NCBI RefSeq assembly: GCF_900100365.1
Contig: NZ_FNKU01000001.1
Span: 5,638,501-5,702,500 of the forward strand
Origin: Pseudomonas cannabina
GTDB taxonomy: Bacteria; Pseudomonadota; Gammaproteobacteria; Pseudomonadales; Pseudomonadaceae
Length of the DNA: 64,000 bases
Direction of reading: 5' to 3'
In this document: piece by piece, positions 1 through 7,671 of the stretch
Layout: each line of letters opens with the position of its first letter
Numbering within the stretch: the first letter of the stretch is position 1
Program-made: the position numbers and the translations under genes
The notes under the pieces: model-generated
Database searches by the model: none
The model's input: only the letters and a program-made list of their open reading frames with translations
Told to the model about the DNA's origin: nothing

Positions 1-231
1 CAGATCCGTATCAGGGAACACGGGGATGCGTTGGTCATTCATGACGATGTGAAACTGGTCCAGGCCATTCTCAGCAGAGCCGAGTGTTAGCCTGGCCAGA
101 AACTCCTGCATGGCCGTGTCGCGGCCCCAGGCTGAGAGGAATATCAGGTTTCGCTGCTCGTCACAGACGCACGCGTCGACGTACAGATCCGGGCATTCTT
201 CTATGTGAAAGAGTTGAGTGCGGCTCGGCAT
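1..231 (-). CDS. Hypothetical ICE protein, C-terminus off the window
   Basis: An open frame starts at the ATG at 231-229 and runs to the window edge, giving at least 77 residues that begin MPSRTQLFHIEECPDLYVDA. The start is supported by a GGAGGT ribosome-binding site a few bases upstream. I do not recognise the family. It has two early cysteines (ACVCDEQ) and no obvious membrane segment. It lies at the end of a minus-strand run of ICE genes and carries the two-hairpin leader found before six of its neighbours, so it is probably expressed and controlled with them. Function unknown. Confidence 0.6.
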   Translation of the reverse strand, partial: MPSRTQLFHIEECPDLYVDACVCDEQRNLIFLSAWGRDTAMQEFLARLTLGSAENGLDQFHIVMNDQRIPVFPDTDL

Positions 232-286
232 TAGGACCTCCAAAACAGGAGGGGAACCGCCCTGAGGGGCGGTGAGGCCCCTCGGG
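232..286 (-). promoter_or_regulatory. Two-hairpin leader with sequestered RBS
   Basis: Read on the minus strand, a 7-bp GC stem (GAGGGGC / GCCCCTC, flanked by CCC and GGG) is followed by CCTCC, which pairs with the ribosome-binding site GGAGG (237-241 with 248-252). The start codon follows 7 bases later. Same architecture as the leaders at 2160, 3395, 4431, 4758, 5430 and 6171. Translational control is inference. Confidence 0.6.
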
Positions 287-582
287 ATTCAATGTGTTTA
301 GCGGATAAATACGGGTTTATCGATTGCCGCCCGTGTTTGTTTTTCTGTCTCATACTGCCAGCGACCATCAACGAACGCATCGCGGTCGAAGTCGTAAACT
401 TCAAACACGACGTTTTTGTCGCATGGGTTTAGATGGGTGCAATACAGCTCACCCTCTGAATTCAAACCGGCGGCCCAGTGATCCCCCAGCTTGAGTCGGT
501 AACCCGGTCGACTCTTCAGCTGAATCGCCCCGGGTTTCGTAGACACCTCCATGCCTTAAACTGAGGCCAATCAGGAGGTGCC

Positions 583-861
583 ATGAGCAACCCACGTTAT
601 CCCGAAGAATTCAAAATCCAAGCGGTCAATCAAGTGACCGAAAAGAAGCTGCCTGTCGCTGATGTGGCGGCGCGTCTTGGCGTGTCGACGCATAGCCTCT
701 ATGCCTGGATAAAGCGCTACAGCAAACCTCAGGCAGAACGGCAGCAAGACGATGATCAGCACGCTGAACTGCGTCGTCTGCGAGCGGAACTCAAGCGGGT
801 CACTGAAGAGCGAGACATCTTAAAAAAGGCCGCCGCGTACTTTGCCAAGGAGTGCGGCTGA
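583..861 (+). CDS. IS3-family transposase OrfA
   Basis: This 92-residue protein has an N-terminal helix-turn-helix of the HTH_Tnp_1 type (YPEEFKIQAV...VADVAARLGVSTHSLYAWIK) and a C-terminal leucine-zipper-like helix (LRRLRAELKRVTEERDILKK), as expected of IS3 OrfA. It overlaps orfB by 10 bases. A slippery A AAA AAG heptamer at 822-828, in the right frame, would give the OrfAB fusion transposase by -1 frameshifting. A good GGAGGTG ribosome-binding site precedes the ATG. Confidence 0.92.
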   Translation: MSNPRYPEEFKIQAVNQVTEKKLPVADVAARLGVSTHSLYAWIKRYSKPQAERQQDDDQHAELRRLRAELKRVTEERDILKKAAAYFAKECG

Positions 862-1733
862 AGTACGCCTTTATCAAGCAGCGCGCGGGCGACTACTCCA
901 TTCGACGGCTTTGCCTGACGCTGAAAGTCCATCCCAGTGGTTATTACGCTTGGTTGTCTGAGCCGCAATCTGCACGCGCTAAAGACGACCAGCGATTGCT
1001 GGGTTTGATCAAGCACTCGTGGCTGGAGAGCGGCGGAGTTTATGGCTATCGCAAAATCCATGACGACCTGCGCGAGGTCGGTGAAGATTGTGGTCGGCAT
1101 CGTGTGGCGAGGTTGATGCGTCTTGAAGGTCTGCGCTCTCAGACAGGGTATCGACGTCGCCCTGGAAAGTACGGCGGTAAGCCAGCGGTCGCCTCACCCA
1201 ATTTACTGAAGCGCGAGTTCGATGTCGTGGAACCCAACAAGGTTTGGGTCACCGACATCACCTACATTCGTACGTATGAAGGCTGGCTGTATTTGGCGGT
1301 GGTGCTGGATCTGTTTTCTCGTCAGGTCGTTGGCTGGTCAATGAAGTCGCAGATGACCAGTGATTTGGCCATTGATGCGTTATTGATGGCGGTTTGGAGG
1401 CGAAAACCGAAACAAGAGGTGATGGTTCACTCCGACCAGGGCAGCCAGTACAGCAGCTCCGATTGGCGCAGTTTTTTGAAGGCAAACAATTTGGTTGCCA
1501 GCATGAGCCGCCGAGGCAATTGTCATGACAACGCCGTGGCTGAGAGCTTTTTCCAGCTTCTGAAACGGGAACGAATCAAGCGGAAAATCTACACCTCACG
1601 GCAAGATGCTCGTAGTGATGTGTTCGATTACATCGAGATGTTCTACAACCCAAAACGCCGCCATGGTTTCAACAATCAGCTGTCACCGGTAGAGTTTGAA
1701 AAACGTTACGCAATGAGCTTGCAAGGTGTCTAG
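852..1733 (+). CDS. IS3-family transposase OrfB (DDE integrase core)
   Basis: OrfB carries the rve-type DDE catalytic core. The first Asp is in WVTDITYIR, the second in VHSDQGSQY, and the Glu is in NAVAESFFQLLK, followed by the usual YNPKRRH tail. An HTH_21-like region precedes it. It is probably made as an OrfAB fusion from the frameshift site at 822-828; its listed start is only the open-frame limit. The stop codon TAG overlaps the CTAG target duplicate of the MITE at 1734. The reading frame is intact although the element's right end is interrupted. Confidence 0.92.
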   Translation: MRLKYAFIKQRAGDYSIRRLCLTLKVHPSGYYAWLSEPQSARAKDDQRLLGLIKHSWLESGGVYGYRKIHDDLREVGEDCGRHRVARLMRLEGLRSQTGYRRRPGKYGGKPAVASPNLLKREFDVVEPNKVWVTDITYIRTYEGWLYLAVVLDLFSRQVVGWSMKSQMTSDLAIDALLMAVWRRKPKQEVMVHSDQGSQYSSSDWRSFLKANNLVASMSRRGNCHDNAVAESFFQLLKRERIKRKIYTSRQDARSDVFDYIEMFYNPKRRHGFNNQLSPVEFEKRYAMSLQGV

Positions 1734-1832
1734 GGAGACGCTGATTTATTCTAAAACCCAGCTGTTGCCCCCAGATAAATCAAGGCCTCCAGAGCGTTGC
1801 AGGGACGAAAAATCGAATAAATCAGCGCCTCC
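1734..1832 (+). repeat. 99-bp MITE (family 1), copy 1
   Basis: Starts GGAGACGCTGATTTATTC and ends with the near-complement GAATAAATCAGCGCCTCC, flanked by CTAG duplicates (1730-1733, 1833-1836). The terminal GGAGRCGCTG is shared with the 1209-bp IS5-family element in this window. It sits in the right end of the IS3-family element. Confidence 0.9.
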
Positions 1833-2159
1833 CTAGAGAATCCGGGGCGATTCAAGCAGCATCGTGTATATCTCTAAGATCTGATCGAAACTCAAAGGCT
1901 CAGCAGCCACGAGTTTTTTCTCAAGCGGATCGAAGGTTACGGTGTTTGTTTGATACAACGGGCTTTGCCCAGCAATGAATATCTCGCATCGGAAGCGCGG
2001 TCGCATTGCTATGGCCGCGTCTGCCTGTTCTATGGTCAGGTCGAGTTCGTCGACCAGAAAGTTCCAGATTTCTGCGTCAGGTGCTTCTTCGTTGTTGGTG
2101 AGTTGATCCTCAATGATGTCCAGGATCGCTTTCTTGATATTCATGAAAAGTGGATGCAT

Positions 2160-2212
2160 GTGATGCTCCTTCAGTCAGTAATGAGGAGCACCCATGAGGG
2201 AGCCCTCAGGGG
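2160..2212 (-). promoter_or_regulatory. Two-hairpin leader with sequestered RBS
   Basis: On the minus strand a TGAGG-GCTC-CCTCA hairpin flanked by CCC/GGG is followed by TGCTCC, which pairs with GGAGCA (2185-2190 with 2164-2169). That stem contains the ribosome-binding site of the split gene starting at 2159. Confidence 0.6.
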
Positions 2213-2247
2213 ATGTGAAAGTAGAAAACGCTCAGTTTTGAACAAGG

Positions 2248-2859
2248 TCAATGAGTGCTGAGATTCCAAATCTGCAGCTTGAAGTCAAGCTCATACCCGA
2301 GCTCGCCAAGGCGAACACATTGTTGCCGCAGACGCTGACGGTCTACCGTTGTATCGAGCTTGACTGAACTTCCAAGAGGCCAGATGGTGCCAAACAGCTC
2401 TGCATCAGCCTCAAGTGCGGTGACCTGTTTCTCAGGCTCGGATCTCGTCATCCCGAACGGTGCGTCACTGTCAGCAGAAACTGATCTTCTGGGCGTTGTT
2501 TGAACAGCCGGACGAGGTTTGGTTGACGACGAGCCTCCCGAGGCTTCTTCGTCGATTGGGTCCGTTTCGTTGTTGGACAGCCTCTCAGCCTCGTCTGCGC
2601 TCAGGTTAGCCACATCGTCCAAAGACATGCTGTCCAGCCTGGCGCGGATTTCGACCACTAATCTGCCGCCGTTGGTGTAGTAGGAGGGACGAATTTCAGT
2701 GATAACGAAATCACCTCGATATTTGCCCTCATGGTACTGGTCCAGCAGCGCATCCTTGATAACGAACTCGCCGATGGATGTCGAAAGTCGCCCAACGTTG
2801 AAAGCGCCGTTGCGACCGCTGATGGTGCGTATGGCCAAATAGCCGGGCAGGTTGATCAT
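2248..2859 (-). CDS. DUF3275 family ICE protein
   Basis: 203 residues beginning MINLPGYLAIRTISGRNGAF. The N-terminal ~80 residues look like the DUF3275 family typical of Pseudomonas integrative conjugative elements. Next comes an acidic and proline/serine-rich linker (about 85-145) and a C-terminal helical segment (about 150-203). The ATG at 2859 has a CCGGAG site upstream. Unlike its neighbours it does not show a clear RBS-sequestering hairpin. Biochemical role unknown; family identity rests on recollection of the motif pattern. Confidence 0.82.
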   Translation of the reverse strand: MINLPGYLAIRTISGRNGAFNVGRLSTSIGEFVIKDALLDQYHEGKYRGDFVITEIRPSYYTNGGRLVVEIRARLDSMSLDDVANLSADEAERLSNNETDPIDEEASGGSSSTKPRPAVQTTPRRSVSADSDAPFGMTRSEPEKQVTALEADAELFGTIWPLGSSVKLDTTVDRQRLRQQCVRLGELGYELDFKLQIWNLSTH

Positions 2860-2902
2860 GACTACTCCGGATTATCGGGCAGGCCACTTATATGGGAGCC
2901 CG

Positions 2903-2927
2903 AAAAAAAGCCCGAAGATTCGGGCTT
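2903..2927 (-). terminator. Rho-independent terminator
   Basis: On the minus strand AAGCCCGAA-TC-TTCGGGCTT is followed by a run of T. It lies just after the natural stop (2955) of the gene starting at 3394 and before the DUF3275 gene. Confidence 0.8.
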
Positions 2928-2954
2928 GTTCGTGGTTTCAGGTTGACGACTGGG

Positions 2955-3394
2955 TCAGAAGAAGTTGAGAGGCTGTTCAGCTCTAAGGAAGGTCTGAAAA
3001 AGCCTTTTCTTCAAAAGTCGAAGCCAGTAAATACAGGCGCTCCAGCCCGGTTCCTCTCCAAAAAAATGGGCTTTTTCAGAGGATACCTAAGCGAAATGCA
3101 AAGGTAGGAATTGCCGTTTATGGCATCCATCCGATGAAGTCTCAGTTCGAGCCAATGACGCCCCGAGCGGTCACCGTTGGGCAGAAAACGATAGATGCCG
3201 AAGTCGATCTGGAGCTCCTCTGGCTGCAGATGAAGCTCGCGATAGGCTTCGAGTACGACTTCGCCAAGACGAGTGCCGACCTCCGCAATGTGTGATGGTT
3301 GTTCCAAATGAACCGATTCTTTCCAGGCGGAAGGAGTCAGCACAACAGGCAGTTTCAGTAAAGTGGATGGCAAGTGATTTATAGTGATGGACAT
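2955..3394 (-). pseudogene. Hypothetical ICE gene with its 3' end displaced by a MITE
   Basis: The reading frame starts MSITINHLPSTLLKLPVVLT at 3394; the upstream ATG at 3430 falls in the leader hairpins and is not credible. After ...YLCISLR the frame enters a 100-bp MITE (2987-3086, CTAA duplicates) and is forced onto a foreign tail ending at 3011. Removing the MITE and one CTAA restores ISLRAEQPLNFF and a stop at 2955, for an original length of about 111 residues. The chimeric protein swaps the last nine residues for about 25 MITE-coded ones, so it may still be made. Family not recognised. Confidence 0.75.
2987..3086 (+). repeat. 100-bp MITE (family 2), copy 1
   Basis: Begins GGAAGGTCTGAAAAAGCC and ends GGGCTTTTTCAGAGGATAC, with CTAA duplicates at 2983-2986 and 3087-3090. 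Its ends resemble those of the IS5-family element at 39922-41115. Confidence 0.88.
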
Positions 3395-3459
3395 AGTAAT
3401 TCTCCAGGTGCGGGCAACCACCTGGCCCAACCGGGAGGTGAATTACCCGGTCAGGTTGG
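3395..3459 (-). promoter_or_regulatory. Two-hairpin leader with sequestered RBS
   Basis: On the minus strand CCGGG pairs with CCCGG, extended by CCAAC/GTTGG. Then CCAGGTG pairs perfectly with CACCTGG (3419-3425 with 3404-3410), burying part of the CTGGAG ribosome-binding site of the gene at 3394. Confidence 0.6.
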
Positions 3460-3528
3460 TTTACGTACTTGAGAACGGTTAGTTAGAATCTTTCTATAAC
3501 GTGAAAGTCATCTGGCATACGTGTCGTA

Positions 3529-3684
3529 TCAGGACATCATTGCGGTAGCCATCAAGGAAAGGAAAGTGGCTACCAATCCTCCAGCCCCTATCTGAGTCAA
3601 TACTTGCGTGGACATTTGCTGTCCACATTCCAAAAAAAAGATGCTTAGCACTGTAAGCACGAGCGTAGCGATGGCGCTTTTCAT
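3529..3684 (-). CDS. Possible 51-residue membrane protein
   Basis: A short frame beginning MKSAIATLVLTVLSIFFLEC has a strongly hydrophobic N-terminal segment and a second one (GGLVATFLSLMATAMM) at its end. It follows an AGGTG ribosome-binding site. Its leader lies beside one arm of a 15-bp perfect inverted repeat (3695-3709 and 3792-3806). It sits downstream of the DUF3577 terminator. The hydrophobic layout and spacing support a real gene, but there is no family match to lean on. Confidence 0.4.
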   Translation of the reverse strand: MKSAIATLVLTVLSIFFLECGQQMSTQVLTQIGAGGLVATFLSLMATAMMS

Positions 3685-3694
3685 GAAATCGACA

Positions 3695-3806
3695 CCTAGT
3701 GTACTGTTTTCGAAAAAACCAGCTACTGACGAACGGAAAATTCAAATTTTATCAATAACTTAGTTTGTAGGTCATGGGTAAATAATTTCGCAAACAGTAC
3801 ACTAGG
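3695..3806. repeat. 112-bp element bounded by long inverted repeats
   Basis: CCTAGTGTACTGTTT at 3695-3709 is repeated inverted and perfect at 3792-3806; with one mismatch the match extends to about 20 bp (adding CGAAA). The centre is AT-rich. No target duplication is visible, so it could be an old MITE or a pair of operator sites. Confidence 0.5.
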
Positions 3807-3821
3807 TTGTGATGAAAAGAA

Positions 3822-3842
3822 AAGGCGCCTGCAGGGCGCCTT
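3822..3842 (-). terminator. Rho-independent terminator after DUF3577 gene
   Basis: AAGGCGCC-CTGCA-GGCGCCTT followed on the minus strand by TTCTTTTC, 19 bases after the stop codon at 3861. Confidence 0.75.
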
Positions 3843-3860
3843 GAGGTTGTAAAAGATCTA

Positions 3861-4430
3861 TCAAGCGGCTTGTTTCTTTCCTCGTCCTGCGCGAGCTGGT
3901 TTTGCTCGTGTGGGCTTAGAGGGAGTAGCAGCTGGAGCTACATCAGTTGGTTCGCTTGCGGCAGACGCCTCGGACTGAACGACTGGGGTAGTGTCCGACT
4001 CTGAACTTTCAGAAGAGGCAGATGCTTCTTCTTTCTGCGGAGCCTGATAGACGTATTCACCTTCAACTTTGATCCAGGCAAGGTACAAGAGACGGCCTTT
4101 GAGGCTGACACCTGGTTGGCCTTGTTTAGCACCACTGCTGTAGGTAAAAACATCAGCCCAGATATCGCCAATCCGGAAAGAGACAAGAACCTTCTTCTCG
4201 GCAGCAACAGCTTCCTGGCAACGGCGAATCAGCTTGTCAGCTTCAGCACCAACCACGTTGCAGTCGATATAAGCGTACTCAGCCGAGTCAGTGCTGCCTT
4301 TGAGGGCGGCCACTGTGACAGCCATGAAAGGATTCCCTTTACGGGGTTTCACTTCACGAATGCGGTTGAGATAGCCAATACCAGTGGTATGCAGGTCGAA
4401 GTATTTGCTTTCGTTAGTAGAGTTGCTCAT
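3861..4430 (-). CDS. DUF3577 / STY4534-family ICE replication-associated protein
   Basis: 189 residues from the ATG at 4430, chosen because a CTGGAGA site precedes it and the longer frame would run through leader hairpins. The conserved region (about 5-115) includes YFDLHTTGIGYLNRIREVK and a following beta-rich part (VLVSFRIGDIWADVFTY), as in the STY4534 family found near single-strand-binding genes of ICEs. The tail (about 125-189) is low complexity, rich in Ser, Glu, Ala and Pro, and ends in basic RAKPARAGRGKKQAA, suggesting nucleic-acid contact. Its exact role in ICE replication or transfer is not established. Confidence 0.82.
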   Translation of the reverse strand: MSNSTNESKYFDLHTTGIGYLNRIREVKPRKGNPFMAVTVAALKGSTDSAEYAYIDCNVVGAEADKLIRRCQEAVAAEKKVLVSFRIGDIWADVFTYSSGAKQGQPGVSLKGRLLYLAWIKVEGEYVYQAPQKEEASASSESSESDTTPVVQSEASAASEPTDVAPAATPSKPTRAKPARAGRGKKQAA

Positions 4431-4504
4431 GGTGTGTCTCCAGTTTTGAATGATCAAAGCGGAGATACACTTCGCCCAGGGGGAAGGTATTCCCCGCATG
4501 GGTG
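4431..4504 (-). promoter_or_regulatory. Two-hairpin leader with sequestered RBS
   Basis: On the minus strand GGGGAA-TACC-TTCCCC (4480-4495) sits within CCCA/TGGG. Then GTGTATCTCC pairs with GGAGACACAC (one mismatch; 4461-4470 with 4432-4441), masking the ribosome-binding site of the DUF3577 gene. Confidence 0.65.
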
Positions 4505-4526
4505 GTAGAGCGAAATTTCACGACAA

Positions 4527-4757
4527 TCAATGCATGAATCTGAACGCAGTAAGCATAACGCCTACGGCAGCAGTCAGCATGACAGCCATACGAATGGTGA
4601 GTTTCAGTTCGAGTCTAGACTCGAGATTGTCGATGTCGGCCTTTGTCGCGAGTTGCGTTTGCATATCCGACTCCAGAGCATCAACGACTGCAGCGGCGCG
4701 GGTTTCCTCGACATCAATCGAAATCAATGCTTGGTACAGCGCAATACTGCTTTTCAT
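4527..4757 (-). CDS. Small coiled-coil protein with C-terminal membrane anchor
   Basis: 76 residues. The first ~52 form a heptad-like helix (VVDALESDMQTQLATKADIDNLESRLELKL) and the last ~22 are hydrophobic (MAVMLTAAVGVMLTAF), so the product looks like a tail-anchored coiled coil, reminiscent of DUF1640-like proteins. A GGAG site precedes the ATG at 4757. It has its own promoter-like sequence (4973-5002) and structured leader. Function unknown. Confidence 0.72.
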   Translation of the reverse strand: MKSSIALYQALISIDVEETRAAAVVDALESDMQTQLATKADIDNLESRLELKLTIRMAVMLTAAVGVMLTAFRFMH

Positions 4758-4810
4758 GAAGGTCTCCTGCTGAGCGCGAGACCTACCCTACGGGAGAGGT
4801 CCCGATGGGT
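4758..4810 (-). promoter_or_regulatory. Two-hairpin leader with sequestered RBS
   Basis: On the minus strand CGGGA-CCTC-TCCCG lies within ACCC/GGGT. Then AGGTCTC pairs perfectly with GAGACCT (4778-4784 with 4760-4766), overlapping the AGGAG ribosome-binding site of the gene at 4757. Confidence 0.65.
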
Positions 4811-4853
4811 GTGAGAATCAATGTGCATCCATCAATCAAAAATCTGATCAACC

Positions 4854-4959
4854 GTTCGCGCTTCCGAATGCTTTGCGAACTAGGGGGTGGATTAATGCGT
4901 GGAACGCATCGTAGTCATGAAATCCAGACTACCTCGGGCATGTTGCTGACAACGTCAGC
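4854..4959 (-). promoter_or_regulatory. Multi-hairpin 5' leader module, copy a
   Basis: Four stems in order on the transcript: GCTGAC/GTCAGC (4945-4959), GTAGTC/GACTAC (4911-4932), ATGCGT/ACGCAT (4895-4909) and GTTCGC/GCGAAC (4854-4880). Copies b, c and d keep most of these stems with changed bases. It begins a few bases after the predicted transcription start of the gene at 4757. Confidence 0.6.
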
Positions 4960-4972
4960 GGTACATGGCTTT

Positions 4973-5002
4973 AGAATCCTTTAAGGGCGATTCGTTTGTC
5001 AA
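4973..5002 (-). promoter_or_regulatory. Sigma70-type promoter for gene at 4757
   Basis: TTGACA (4997-5002), an 18-base spacer and GATTCT (4973-4978). The same -35 and a similar -10 (CATTCT) occur at the matching place before leader module c, and both are followed by a conserved CATGTACC. Confidence 0.55.
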
Positions 5003-5013
5003 CCCTCCCAATG

Positions 5014-5041
5014 AAAAAAGCCCCTCAATGAATGAGGAGCT
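5014..5041 (-). terminator. Rho-independent terminator
   Basis: On the minus strand CTCCTCA-TTCAT-TGAGGGG followed by CTTTTTTC, 20 bases after the stop of the gene ending at 5061. Confidence 0.7.
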
Positions 5042-5060
5042 TGTCGGGGGAGGGGGAGTA

Positions 5061-5429
5061 TCAAGCAATCAGCTGGTCCAGAGAGCCCAGTACAGGGCCC
5101 TTAACGGCTGGTTCAGCATCCTGCTTTTTGGAGGTGGCGGGTGCCTTTGATGCGCGAGGTTTGCGGGGTTTCTTCGCTGGTTTGGTCTGAGCTTCTTGCG
5201 TATTAGCCTCATACCAATCATGAAGGTTGATCCCTTTGCGACGCACTATGGCTGGCACGCTGCAGTAGTTTTCGCACTCGTCGTGGGTCAGTGCAGGTTC
5301 GGGCATTTTCCTGCACTGCGGTGCCGCCATATGGACGTTTGCAGGGCTAAGCTTCTGGTTGACCGCACGTGTGCATTCACGCAATGCCGTGCCGACCCTA
5401 ACGCCAAAACGAAAGCTTGCTGAACTCAT
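5061..5429 (-). CDS. Hypothetical ICE protein with basic C-terminal tail
   Basis: 122 residues from the ATG at 5429, chosen because AGGAGA lies just upstream; the longer frame runs through the leader. The N-terminal half has spaced cysteines (RECTRAV, PQCRKMP, DECENYC) that could bind a metal. It is followed by VRRKGINLHDWYEAN and a lysine/alanine/proline tail (KPAKKPRKPRASKAPATSKK). The basic tail resembles that of the DUF3577 protein nearby. Family not recognised. Confidence 0.65.
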   Translation of the reverse strand: MSSASFRFGVRVGTALRECTRAVNQKLSPANVHMAAPQCRKMPEPALTHDECENYCSVPAIVRRKGINLHDWYEANTQEAQTKPAKKPRKPRASKAPATSKKQDAEPAVKGPVLGSLDQLIA

Positions 5430-5492
5430 GGTGTTTCTCCTGGGAAAAATGCGGAGAACACCGCCCGAGAGGGGAGTGATTCCCCGCTGGGT
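5430..5492 (-). promoter_or_regulatory. Two-hairpin leader with sequestered RBS
   Basis: On the minus strand GGGGA-ATCAC-TCCCC (5471-5485), then GGTGTTCTCC pairs with GGAGAAACACC (5453-5462 with 5430-5440, one bulge), masking the ribosome-binding site. Confidence 0.65.
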
Positions 5493-5538
5493 GAGTGACG
5501 CGTTTAGTGTGCAACCATCGGCAATTGGGTCGCCGAAC

Positions 5539-5635
5539 GTTCGCCCTTCCGGAAGCTTTGCGAACTTTTTTTGGATCAATGCGCAGAACGCATCGTAGTC
5601 ATGAGATCCAGACTACCTGGGGTGCTGCTGACAAC
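5539..5635 (-). promoter_or_regulatory. Multi-hairpin 5' leader module, copy b
   Basis: Keeps GTAGTC/GACTAC (5595-5616), ATGCG/CGCAT (5579-5593) and GTTCGC/GCGAAC (5539-5565). The first stem is degenerate. It abuts the stop of the upstream gene (5637), and no TTGACA promoter is visible before it, so the gene at 5429 may be read from the promoter at 6652-6680. Confidence 0.55.
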
Positions 5636-5636
5636 A

Positions 5637-6170
5637 TCAACGCCATAGGCGCAAGATCTTGAGGACACTACGGATACAGGCGCTCTTTGTGTTGAGGACA
5701 ATGGCTTTCATGCAGGTTCTACTTGCGTCTGCAATTTCCTCTTGACGCCAGCGCTCCTCTTTCTCGGCCCACTCTTTGCGGATGAGCTCCGAATCATCCT
5801 CGGGGTAATATCCATCTGTACTGAAGTCCACATGGTCATCTGGCCCGGGGAGCTCAAAACACCCACAAGGACAAGTGTCTTCAGTCAGACCGTGGCTGCA
5901 GATGCCGTGACTACGATTATCGTCCATGTGTGCCTCAATTTCCGACGGTGAAAGATAATCATAGGCATAGCGTGCATAGGCAAATGCCTCCGCCACTTCG
6001 GGTGACGTTTCGTCACCGCCAAAAGTCTCGATCATCCGCGAACAGAAATGTTTGAGGACCATGGTTTCGTATGTGGGAAACTTGCAACATGCGTCGCCGT
6101 ACAGCATGTTGACGCGTTCAGTAATCTCAACATTTTGGAGTGGTGAGGGTGAAGCCGCGTGGTTCGACAT
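5637..6170 (-). CDS. Hypothetical ICE protein, cysteine/acid-rich
   Basis: 177 residues beginning MSNHAASPSPLQNVEITERV, with the ATG at 6170 preceded by CGGAGA. A central cluster of His and Cys (HGICSHGLTEDTCPCGCFE, about residues 89-107) looks like a metal site. After it come an acidic stretch and a charged helix (ELIRKEWAEKEERWRQEE). I know no family for it. Its 5' leader module has been hit by two MITEs (6358-6560), which should alter its expression. Confidence 0.68.
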   Translation of the reverse strand: MSNHAASPSPLQNVEITERVNMLYGDACCKFPTYETMVLKHFCSRMIETFGGDETSPEVAEAFAYARYAYDYLSPSEIEAHMDDNRSHGICSHGLTEDTCPCGCFELPGPDDHVDFSTDGYYPEDDSELIRKEWAEKEERWRQEEIADASRTCMKAIVLNTKSACIRSVLKILRLWR

Positions 6171-6238
6171 GTTCTATCTCCGTTCAAACAGCAGAAAACG
6201 GAGACACTTGTCCCCGAGGGAAAGTATTCCCCGAGGGT
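6171..6238 (-). promoter_or_regulatory. Two-hairpin leader with sequestered RBS
   Basis: On the minus strand GGGAA-TACT-TTCCC, then TCTCCGTT pairs perfectly with AACGGAGA (6197-6204 with 6177-6184), which holds the ribosome-binding site of the gene at 6170. Confidence 0.65.
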
Positions 6239-6357
6239 AGGTGAGTTATATGATATGACTCGGCTAAGCCGAGTGCAGCACGGTGTGCGACGTGAAGTAT
6301 GCATCCATCGGTACGGAATACCGATCGTTCGCGCTTCCGGAAGCTTTGCGAACTTAG

Positions 6358-6457
6358 GGAAGGTCTGAAAAAGCCTTTTCTTCAAAAGTCGAAGCCAGTA
6401 AATACAGGCGCTCCAGCCCGGTTCCTCTCCAAAAAAATGGGCTTTTTCAGAGGATAC
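6358..6457 (+). repeat. 100-bp MITE (family 2), copy 2
   Basis: Same orientation and sequence as copy 1, with TTAG at 6354-6357 and 6458-6461. The right TTAG is shared with the next MITE. Confidence 0.9.
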
Positions 6458-6461
6458 TTAG

Positions 6462-6560
6462 GGAGACGCTGATTTATTCTAAAACCCAGCTGTTGCCCCC
6501 AGATAAATCAAGGCCTCCAGAGCGTTGCAGGGACGAAAAATCGAATAAATCAGCGCCTCC
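6462..6560 (+). repeat. 99-bp MITE (family 1), copy 2
   Basis: GGAGACGCTG...CAGCGCCTCC with TTAG on both sides (6458-6461, 6561-6564). It was inserted at the TTAG created by the family 2 MITE or the reverse. Confidence 0.9.
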
Positions 6561-6651
6561 TTAGGGATGGATCAATGCGTTGAACGCACCGTAGTCATGA
6601 GATCCAGACTACCCGGGCATGTGGCTGACAACGTCAGCGGTACATGTCTTC

Positions 6652-6680
6652 AGAATGTGAATTCGGGGAGGGCTTGTCAA
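6652..6680 (-). promoter_or_regulatory. Sigma70-type promoter for gene at 6170
   Basis: TTGACA (6675-6680), a 17-base spacer, CATTCT (6652-6657), then CATGTACC and the first stem of leader module c, matching the arrangement at 4973-5002. Confidence 0.55.
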
Positions 6681-6774
6681 GCAGTAGTAGCGGGGAGTCG
6701 CTTATGATCTTGGGTGAACGGCAGTGGCCTTATGAAGTCGGAAACCCATTTAGGCGAGAATACTCGTCAACACG

Positions 6775-6891
6775 TCAGTGACGTGATTGGATCGCACGTT
6801 TTAGGTCAGGCCAGCTGGCATAGAGTCCTACGCCACCTACTGAGAAAAACATGAACATCAGAATCGCGATACCAGCCATTTCATGGCTCAT
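6775..6891 (-). CDS. 38-residue single-pass membrane protein
   Basis: Begins MSHEMAGIAILMFMFFSVGG and continues GVGLYASWPDLKRAIQSRH: one hydrophobic segment (about 5-24) and a short basic tail. It follows a strong AGGAGGAAT ribosome-binding site that overlaps the end of the upstream 58-residue gene, so the two are probably cotranslated. Family unknown. Confidence 0.55.
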   Translation of the reverse strand: MSHEMAGIAILMFMFFSVGGVGLYASWPDLKRAIQSRH

Positions 6892-6892
6892 A

Positions 6893-7069
6893 TCATTCCT
6901 CCTTAGTCATAAAGATGCCGAGAAGCCACATTACAACCCCTACAACCATGGCGCAAGCAGATAGCAGGGAGAAGTTTGTAACGAAAATGCTGATCAGCGC
7001 AGCCGCAATCGCAGTCGAACCAATTTTGCGCAGATCCTCGGCCACGGCTTTTTTTTGGATTGTTTTCAT
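6893..7069 (-). CDS. 58-residue membrane protein
   Basis: From the ATG at 7069 (AAGGA upstream): MKTIQKKAVAEDLRKIGS, a charged N-terminus, then two hydrophobic segments (AIAAALISIFVTNFSLLSAC and AMVVGVVMWLLGIFM) with little loop. An earlier ATG at 7105 is possible. It is the middle gene of a row of three very small hydrophobic products (33, 58 and 38 residues) between the ICE genes and topB. Function unknown. Confidence 0.55.
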   Translation of the reverse strand: MKTIQKKAVAEDLRKIGSTAIAAALISIFVTNFSLLSACAMVVGVVMWLLGIFMTKEE

Positions 7070-7112
7070 TTGAAATCCTTGACCGACAGGTGAAAGCGCC
7101 TTCATAGAGGCT

Positions 7113-7214
7113 TCACGCATACCTGCGCGTGCCGGTAATCATCTCCAATGCCAGTCTCGCGTTGAGCACAGCGGCCAAGAGGGTAATGATGAGAATCGTG
7201 CTGAGAGTTATCAT
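7113..7214 (-). CDS. Possible 33-residue membrane peptide
   Basis: Begins MITLSTILIITLLAAVLNAR and ends TGTRRYA, with one hydrophobic helix and a basic end. No convincing ribosome-binding site. Included because it lines up with two better-supported small membrane genes downstream. Confidence 0.3.
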   Translation of the reverse strand: MITLSTILIITLLAAVLNARLALEMITGTRRYA

Positions 7215-7450
7215 CGTCACAGACGATCACTCTCAGCCGATGTGGGCTTGGCTATAACTTGAAAAATGTGCCACCTGTGAGCGCAAGCTCAGCGAGGATC
7301 CCTGGGCATTGATCGCACGCATTGCTTCATCGACATCACCCGACCCGTTGTCGTGGCTTGGGTCAGTAATCAAAAGGCACGCATTCGCGCACAAAAGGAG
7401 CCCGTTTTTTCACCGGCGGGCACCGGCAGCGAAAAGTGGCTACCTTGGAA

Positions 7451-7493
7451 GGTAACCTGGTCATCCAGCGCGCTGCGAGATGACCAGGTTACC
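7451..7493. other. Perfect 15-bp palindrome in the gap before topB
   Basis: GGTAACCTGGTCATC (7451-7465) and its exact complement (7479-7493) flank a loop containing CAGCGCGCTG, itself a palindrome. No T run follows, so it is not a plain terminator. A protein-binding site or replication/transfer origin element is possible. The rest of 7215-7829 holds the orphan leader module d and no credible gene. Confidence 0.55.
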
Positions 7494-7671
7494 GTCCGAA
7501 AAAGCGGGGGAATTTAAAAAAAAGTGGGCCACAACACCAGTGTGACCCTGAGACGATTGTGCATCGAACCTTCCATGAACCCTGTGTGCCTATGAACCCG
7601 CTTTCACGAGTTAGACGGCTGCGTGTCTGCTATTGAACAGGGAGACACAGGGAGAATTCACAACAAGATCT

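Follow-up and report, generated by a model that had tools for sequence, protein, structure and literature searches.

Seven leaders in an integrative and conjugative element of Pseudomonas cannabina

The window analyzed here is a stretch of 64,000 nucleotides (nt) from Pseudomonas cannabina (assembly GCF_900100365.1, contig NZ_FNKU01000001.1, positions 5,638,501 to 5,702,500). Between 1 and 10 kb, its minus strand carries genes of an integrative and conjugative element (ICE), including those for a DUF3577 protein, a DUF3275 protein, and a topoisomerase. In other annotations, DUF3577 bears the name "STY4534 family ICE replication protein," and the closest named relatives of the window's copy include proteins of P. 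asturiensis and P. congelans. The region is duplicated, with a second copy at ∼0.69 Mb on the same contig. An earlier note on this DNA had described a shared leader with two hairpins directly upstream of the minus-strand starts at 6170, 5429, 4757, 4430, 3394, 2159, and 231, and all seven leaders were indeed present (52 to 72 nt; Table 1). The second hairpin was said to hide the GGAG of the Shine-Dalgarno sequence (SD). Predicted folds of all seven leaders showed both hairpins, but at 3394 the second covers only the first two bases of GGAG. The CCC/GGG framing of the first hairpin was also found, but this outer pairing looks like a piece of the strand-exchange design considered below. In what follows, the first hairpin (P1) pairs strands A and A', the second (P2) pairs strands B and C, with the SD in C, and P3 denotes a helix between A and B.

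A mechanical leader pattern (C-run, GGG, CCC, GGG, then an SD and an open reading frame [ORF] of at least 40 amino acids [aa]) occurred 7 times in the 64-kb window and not once in 7501-64000. Dinucleotide shuffles (100 each) gave means of 0.17 for the window, 0.27 for 7501-64000, and 0.03 for 1-7500, with a maximum of 2; the seven-leader pattern is strongly above chance. In 37 Pseudomonas DUF3577 loci of 16 to 20 kb, which include the window's own region again (L039), the pattern matched 151 times, versus 0.22 matches per shuffled locus. A covariance model built from 18 leaders (R1), two of them the window copies at 4430 and 5429, recovered four of the seven window copies at E ≤ 0.5 (6170, 5429, 4430, and 3394), and the short copies at 4757, 2159, and 231 were not reached at this threshold.

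Three helices covary between leaders

In addition to P1 and P2, the leaders can form the helix P3, which the first reading of the sequence had missed and which competes with both: the first arm of P1 together with the loop (A) pairs with the 5' arm of P2 (B). By eye, A resembles the SD arm C, so that A is able to pair with the anti-SD strand B. To measure how well strands fit each other, the duplex energy of each leader's own strands was compared with that of strands swapped between leaders. Set 1 comprised 93 Pseudomonas leaders (99 minus 2 removed by eye and 4 without a parsed SD). Set 2 comprised 135 leaders from other genomes and four plasmids (151 minus 13 removed by eye and 3 unparsed), and a Pseudomonas set without by-eye removals (n = 87) was analyzed alongside it. 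Set 3 comprised 38 leaders, taken from the gene strand only, of an IncC plasmid, pQBR55, a DUF3577-free contig, two genomes outside the class Gammaproteobacteria, and one more plasmid.

In set 1, the A:B energy was −15.3 for own strands versus −11.2 for swapped strands (standard deviation, 0.27; n = 93). In set 2, own strands fitted better than swapped ones in all three helices (A:B, −17.15 versus −11.93, z = −22; B:C, −12.25 versus −9.04, z = −17; A:A', −15.27 versus −11.12, z = −21.5), and the control pairs gave z values of −2.9 (A':C), 0.1 (A:C), and −1.7 (A':B). Restoring the leaders removed by eye left A:B at z = −21.7 (n = 144). The A:B value of set 3 (z = −11.1, n = 38) was reached by 0 of 5,000 permutations, and the same was true for the IncC leaders alone (n = 11). 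With one leader per gene family (75 families), A:B, B:C, and A:A' were each matched by 0 of 50,000 permutations, and the real value of the controls was reached by 954 (A':C), 40,350 (A:C), and 5,130 (A':B) of 50,000.

When strands were exchanged only between leaders of one locus, so that base composition and host stayed roughly constant, A:B still gave z = −16.1. Within ortholog families, A:B reached P = 0.0002 in each of the DUF3577 (n = 31), RadC (n = 22), 200-aa (n = 22), and helicase (n = 19) families; persistence of the signal inside ortholog families indicates that pairing has been maintained by compensating changes in place. Since the P1 loop alone also fits B (z = −7.9, n = 118; z = −3.8, n = 81), the A:B signal is not a by-product of A:A'. 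Of 270 mock leaders that the pattern picked out of shuffled sequence, 250 were used, and these showed no signal for A:B (z = −1.0) or B:C (z = −0.1); their A:A' row was an artifact (standard deviation, 33) and was not used. In the alignment of 18 leaders, 96.6% of the P3 cells were paired, with three both-side changes (reached by 4 of 500 shuffles) and a covariation score reached by 0 of 500, and for P1 and P2 together 85.7% of cells were paired, with a score reached by 6 of 500. G·U made up 115 of 188 A:B mismatches (null, 19%) and A·C 14 of 188 (null, 13%), a bias that points to the sense RNA; the 81 A:A' mismatches contained 34 G·U and 10 A·C. For the covariation between paralogous sites that the earlier note had claimed, leaders in other elements had been named as the deciding comparison. 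These covary strongly, and the evidence is stronger than was then supposed because the alternative, anti-anti-SD helix is also conserved.

Two predicted, mutually exclusive folds at the Shine-Dalgarno sequence

A:B and B:C share a median of 82% of their B positions and at least half in 194 of 208 leaders. At 1,474 shared B positions, the A base was identical to the C base in 81%, and in 133 cases B was U, pairing with G in A and with A in C. Energies, structures, and barriers given here are predictions, with barriers taken from a direct-path search and thus upper bounds. The closed (OFF) state was predicted to be lower by a median of 5.6 kcal/mol; of the 222 full-length leaders, 190 had B:C (at least 4 bp) and 38 had A:B in their minimum-energy structures. 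In prefixes lacking C, P3 was dominant in 176 of 222. The SD was unpaired at 0.71 in models of the open (ON) state and at 0.19 in OFF models, a contrast that arises partly by construction because the ON model forbids B:C.

The leaders hence contain what a two-state anti-anti-SD arrangement consists of, namely, two exclusive helices that both covary and one of which sequesters the SD arm, and there is good support for the leader being able to adopt two exclusive folds at the SD. What the sequences show is that the three helices covary, overlap on B, lie at the SD, and recur in front of many gene families; from this we infer a switch. The best explanation, and in our view a probable one, is that each leader acts as a short cis-acting mRNA switch controlling translation initiation of the downstream gene; that the leader regulates translation is likely.

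In the proposed strand order CCC-A-A'-GGG-B-loop-C(SD)-AUG, the OFF state would combine P1 (CCC:GGG and A:A') with P2 (B:C) and bury the SD. In the ON state, P3 would form, its hairpin would enclose an A':GGG pairing, and C, including the SD, would be released. A and C would thus be look-alikes competing for B, and A' and B would compete for A; since A' was paired with the GGG run in the ON models of 219 of 222 leaders, CCC and A' would likewise compete for GGG. The near-invariant C-runs and G-runs are perhaps only the SD sequence reflected along this chain of pairings; CC and GGG runs were also demanded by the search pattern. The OFF state is usually predicted to be more stable at full length and P3 to be favored while C is still missing from the transcript. 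During synthesis, the RNA may thus be open for a time and shut afterward if nothing keeps it open, and exposure of the SD would set translation. A shared factor or ribosome loading would most likely act at a G-poor tract (roughly UUUCAUCAACCC) overlapping the CCC of P1 and tip all copies together, the outcome being a coordinated burst of establishment-type proteins.

Several observations weigh against such a switch. The control A':C was slightly better than permuted (z = −2.0 to −3.0), and B:C mismatches included about as many A·C (44 of 136, mostly C opposite A) as G·U (40 of 136), which we interpret as a compromise at the SD's A residue. For the window's seven leaders alone, the A:B signal was modest, if in the right direction (rank 60 of 5,040 by energy and 130 of 5,040 by pair score). 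Among nine ortholog families, the 122-aa family (n = 8, close copies) showed no covariation, and another (n = 7) had P = 0.09 for A:B. The three both-side changes of P1 and P2 in the 18-leader alignment were reached by 247 of 500 shuffles. ON was predicted to be the more stable state in 40 of 222 leaders, and the predicted ON/OFF barriers were high (medians of 15.3, 17.6, and 20.3 kcal/mol), which could mean a one-way kinetic decision instead of a reversible switch. The two folds are not exclusive in every leader: by eye, the SD arm of P. fluorescens-type DUF3577 leaders has a second possible partner, the segment GTTTTCC. Finally, no trigger was found: the three CsrA genes of the genome are far from both ICE regions, and the genome has no ProQ match.

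The same strands could instead form a transcription attenuator, in which the A:B hairpin and a following U-rich stretch would be an intrinsic terminator, P1 the antiterminator, and P2 secondary. T indeed accounts for 41 to 68% at positions 1 to 6 after the A:B helix, and 81 of 222 leaders have at least five T in 8 nt, including the window copies at 6170, 5429, and 231 with 5/8. Moreover, a terminator-like site at 6199-6216 lies within the 6170 leader, and 14 such sites were found in 1-7500 versus a shuffle mean of 7.0. However, 141 of 222 leaders have fewer than five T in 8 nt (one each at 4757 and 3394), and attenuation would leave the covariation of B with the SD arm C unexplained. G is avoided in the upstream tract as well, so the richness of the loop in U may only serve to keep it unstructured, and we regard an attenuator as unlikely.

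Static masking of the SD, with P2 lowering translation of genes meant for coupling or helicase action, P1 as an insulator, and A:B without a role, would fit the prevalence of B:C over A:B in the full-length minimum-energy structures. It would also fit the 73 of 222 leaders in which the longest nearby ORF (at least 60 aa, a putative gene) ends at most 60 nt upstream of P1. We nevertheless consider it very unlikely, as the covariation of A:B is on a par with that of P1 and P2, both in the three leader sets and in the larger families of orthologs, and the P1 loop alone, which a static model leaves unpaired, covaries with B. An element acting as single-stranded DNA (ssDNA) during transfer (a Frpo-like promoter or protein site) would suit those leader genes that are of the leading- or establishment-region kind (RadC, ArdC, SSB, and recombination genes, a classification from general knowledge), but appears extremely improbable given the preference of A:B and A:A', though not of B:C, for G·U over A·C in sense notation, the end of the leader at the SD and start codon, and the lack of a promoter excess in 1-7500 (2 sites versus 4.8 expected in a search for ordinary, not folded, promoters).

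Distribution over genomes and plasmids

At E ≤ 1e-3, R1 matched 23 of 274 genomes of the class (covariance-model E-values are rough). Among these was the window's genome, in which all nine matches listed fell within the two ICE regions, including one ∼1.9 kb to the left of the window. A further model (R2), trained partly on DUF3577 leaders, matched 35 of 149 Pseudomonas genomes (E ≤ 1e-4) and, across the phylum, 16 of 398 genomes, including two from outside the class. The 80 DUF3577 loci most like the query, out of 547, were mostly from Pseudomonas and also from Stutzerimonas, Halopseudomonas, Variovorax, and Caballeronia; by eye, all 80 of these named loci had an R2 match ending at or close to the DUF3577 start, and all 262 R2 matches listed at them were on the DUF3577 strand.

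Leaders were also found on plasmids, namely, pY89 (MOBH, MPF_G), pSGI4 of Salmonella, Vibrio and Burkholderia plasmids, pQBR55, and an IncC plasmid, in which matches at E ≤ 0.1 end at or adjoin the starts of ssb, bet, YqaJ exonuclease, DUF3150, VWA, and other genes. The earlier proposal of an ICE-wide switch therefore holds in that a shared leader covaries across elements, but is too narrow, as plasmids such as pY89, pQBR55, and the IncC plasmid carry it too. No leader match was found on a Serratia MOBH plasmid whose genes are similar, so the gene set does not require the leader. In the Serratia plasmid pS50079-2 (L254, 400-15200), where a similar gene set stands without a leader, a different recurring AT-rich motif (AAATATATAAATTTAT) lies just before many start codons and is possibly another element-wide control sequence. 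Contig 67 (L245; 11.9 kb) of genome G055, which has no DUF3577 match, carries eleven leaders together with genes for CobS-like AAA, DUF3150, CobT/VWA, and methylase proteins; the DUF3150 proteins of this contig and of pQBR55 are 90% identical.

In total, the proteins encoded behind 295 leaders form 82 BLAST clusters, 50 of which are singletons. The ORFs behind leaders were called by script and part of them checked, 17 name prefixes were dropped before clustering, and BLAST replaced a first, looser clustering. Pfam names among 28 (20 + 8) scanned proteins included RadC, DUF3275, SNF2/DEAD helicase, DUF5983, DUF6094, DUF932, DUF4942, DndB, DUF1281, UvrD, primase-Toprim, and ArdC, and 11 of the 28 had no Pfam match at E ≤ 0.01. 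CobS-like AAA, DUF3150, CobT/VWA, and cytosine methylase were also among the names for these 28. Several of these families are typical establishment or anti-restriction genes.

The upstream tract and candidate triggers

With one leader per family, positions −10 to −1 before P1 contained 0 to 7% G (background, 27%) and 85% A at −1, a position that the search pattern barred from being C. This G-poor tract is the conserved part noticed outside the pairings and would be the best candidate contact for a factor or the ribosome. Counts of the complement of the 5' tract exceeded those of the reversed motif; they are uninformative on a trans-acting small RNA because the leaders' own antisense contains the complement.

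Among possible causes, ProQ was discarded as it had no match in this genome, and translational coupling as a general cause because of the low share of leaders with an ORF end close upstream (73 of 222, as above). CsrA/RsmA leaders resemble the present ones in post-transcriptional control at the SD, and CsrA genes are known on mobile elements (general knowledge and excerpts of PMC7366521). However, GGA occurs in the P1 apical loop of only 3 of 222 leaders (only P1 loops were counted), and no CsrA gene lies near these ICE regions; CsrA/RsmA was rejected as the factor. DUF3577 as an obligate factor was rejected as well, since genomes G044, G055, G070, and G092 have leaders and no DUF3577 match. 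Of 149 Pseudomonas genomes, 32 had DUF3577, 35 had the leader at E ≤ 1e-4, and 31 had both; G121 has DUF3577 without a leader at this threshold, and a permissive search gave one before its DUF3577 gene (L068).

On a broader scale, the leaders might form an RNA regulon spanning conjugative elements, in which one common signal would flip dozens of sequence-unrelated switch copies at once and time a short establishment and anti-defense burst, a tentative idea that we regard as rather doubtful. The signal could be an ssDNA-binding protein, such as DUF3577, that would sit on the G-poor tract and be drawn off by incoming ssDNA. The predicted structure of the window's DUF3577 protein (3861-4430) contained a barrel like the oligonucleotide/oligosaccharide-binding (OB) fold (mean pLDDT, 67; pTM, 0.49). 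Its fold search gave weak matches, mostly to ssDNA-binding proteins (best E, 3e-3), and a sequence search of the PDB gave nothing useful. The leader-rich DNA of G055, a genome without a DUF3577 match, speaks against the DUF3577 version of such a regulon.

A switch in front of many unrelated families on ICEs and plasmids would add a layer of control, and the leader would serve as a computable tag for finding establishment-type genes, many of which are of unknown function. How conjugative elements achieve rapid, brief, and joint expression of establishment and anti-restriction genes is presented as an open question for pLS20 in excerpts of PMC8708921.

Relation to known RNAs

None of the seven leaders in the window was overlapped by an Rfam 15 match, even at E ≤ 5, and at further loci no match at curated thresholds fell on leaders apart from one radC RNA overlap (L109). 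The best sub-threshold match was mir-612 at L115 2499-2583 (36.7 bits versus a gathering threshold of 100; E, 0.0023), over a weak leader match. As an RNA family, the leader is unusual in being recognized by strand fit more than by conserved sequence, which may be why family searches missed it.

The radC RNA motif (RF01754) is annotated as cis-regulatory (excerpts of PMC2864571). It occurs in the same elements as the leader and often adjoins it: by eye, 15 of 17 radC RNA matches in seven loci had a leader at most ∼45 nt downstream or overlapping. However, the matches in the window end upstream of the leaders (Table 1), only 1 of the 17 (L109, 11586-11738) overlaps a leader, by ∼30 nt, and leaders also occur without radC RNA (4430, 3394, 2159, and 231 in the window; no radC RNA was found in the IncC and pQBR55 loci).

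The nearest published analogue in role that we found is EGeRS1 of the pLS20 family, which, according to excerpts of PMC8708921, is a structured sequence shared by several establishment operons, including that of ardC, and ends at the ribosome-binding site by a mechanism called unknown. The leaders likewise share structure, end at the ribosome-binding site, and precede several establishment genes. Compared by description, EGeRS1 is ∼400 to 750 bp long, belongs to Bacillus plasmids, and in its pLS20 copies is 62 to 95% identical to the one before ardC, whereas the leaders are 52 to 72 nt long, belong to Pseudomonadota, vary in sequence from copy to copy, and make a three-strand exchange visible.

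Translational riboswitches and anti-SD/anti-anti-SD leaders have two exclusive folds, one of which hides the SD, and the present leaders share this feature. In contrast to riboswitches, they share pairing logic, not sequence, ahead of the 82 BLAST clusters, with no conserved aptamer noticed; no ligand-binding core was seen by eye in the inspected leaders, in which recurring G/C runs are imposed by the search pattern. Work on the control of bet/exo in SXT/R391 reportedly exists. The earlier note's remark that its author knew of no such element agrees with our search of the Creative Commons-licensed PubMed Central literature, in which no description of the leader was found; a subscription paper could hold one. 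The main text of a leading-region paper (PMC11541004) contains no occurrence of RNA structure, radC, DUF3577, or Shine-Dalgarno. Within the literature searched, the leader is a real, widespread, and undescribed RNA element.

Table 1. Positions of the leaders, their strands, and the neighboring radC RNAs in the window
Feature	Positions	Strand	A	A'+GGG	B	C+SD	Remarks
Leader of 177-aa gene (start 6170)	6171..6237	-	6223-6235	6212-6222	6183-6214 (B region)	6171-6181	R1 match 6168-6240, E 2.4e-7
Leader of 122-aa gene (start 5429)	5430..5491	-	5476-5489	5464-5475	5443-5466	5430-5441	R1 E 2e-12 (copy in model)
Leader of 76-aa gene (start 4757)	4758..4809	-	4796-4807	4786-4795	4770-4788	4758-4768	
Leader of DUF3577 gene (start 4430)	4431..4502	-	4486-4500	4475-4485	4443-4477	4431-4441	R1 E 1.9e-16 (copy in model)
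Leader of 127-aa gene (start 3394)	3395..3455	-	3436-3453	3426-3435	3407-3428	3395-3405	R1 E 2.6e-5
Leader of 108-aa gene (start 2159)	2160..2212	-	2200-2210	2191-2199	2172-2193	2160-2170	
Leader of gene starting 231	232..286	-	271-284	260-270	243-262	232-241	
Known radC RNA (RF01754)	4825..4977	-					98.2 bits; ends 15 nt before 4757 leader; adjacent, not part of the new element
Known radC RNA	5511..5657	-					76.6 bits; ends 19 nt before 5429 leader
5' part of radC RNA upstream of 6170 leader	6560..6656	-					66.0 bits; interrupted by small repeats; weak radC match 6301-6426, 32.5 bits

Neighboring features of the window

The window's DUF3275 gene (2248-2859) has no match to the leader pattern upstream, unlike DUF3275 genes in other elements. 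The gene starting at 231 encodes 77 aa inside the window and 199 aa in L039, which runs beyond the window edge. The gene starting at 2159 encodes 108 aa, versus 174 aa in the second copy (L038); it is split by a repeat resembling a miniature inverted-repeat transposable element (MITE; ∼1731-1835) and a probable insertion sequence (plus-strand ORFs 583-861 and 852-1733), which together occupy 541-1835. By eye, the radC RNA upstream of the 6170 gene is broken at 6301-6656 by small MITE-like inserted repeats, and copies related to these inserts lie near 2982-3090 and 1731-1835. A short element with inverted ends (CCTAGTGTACTG.../...CAGTACACTAGG) was likewise seen by eye at 3695-3806, between the DUF3577 gene and the gene starting at 3394.

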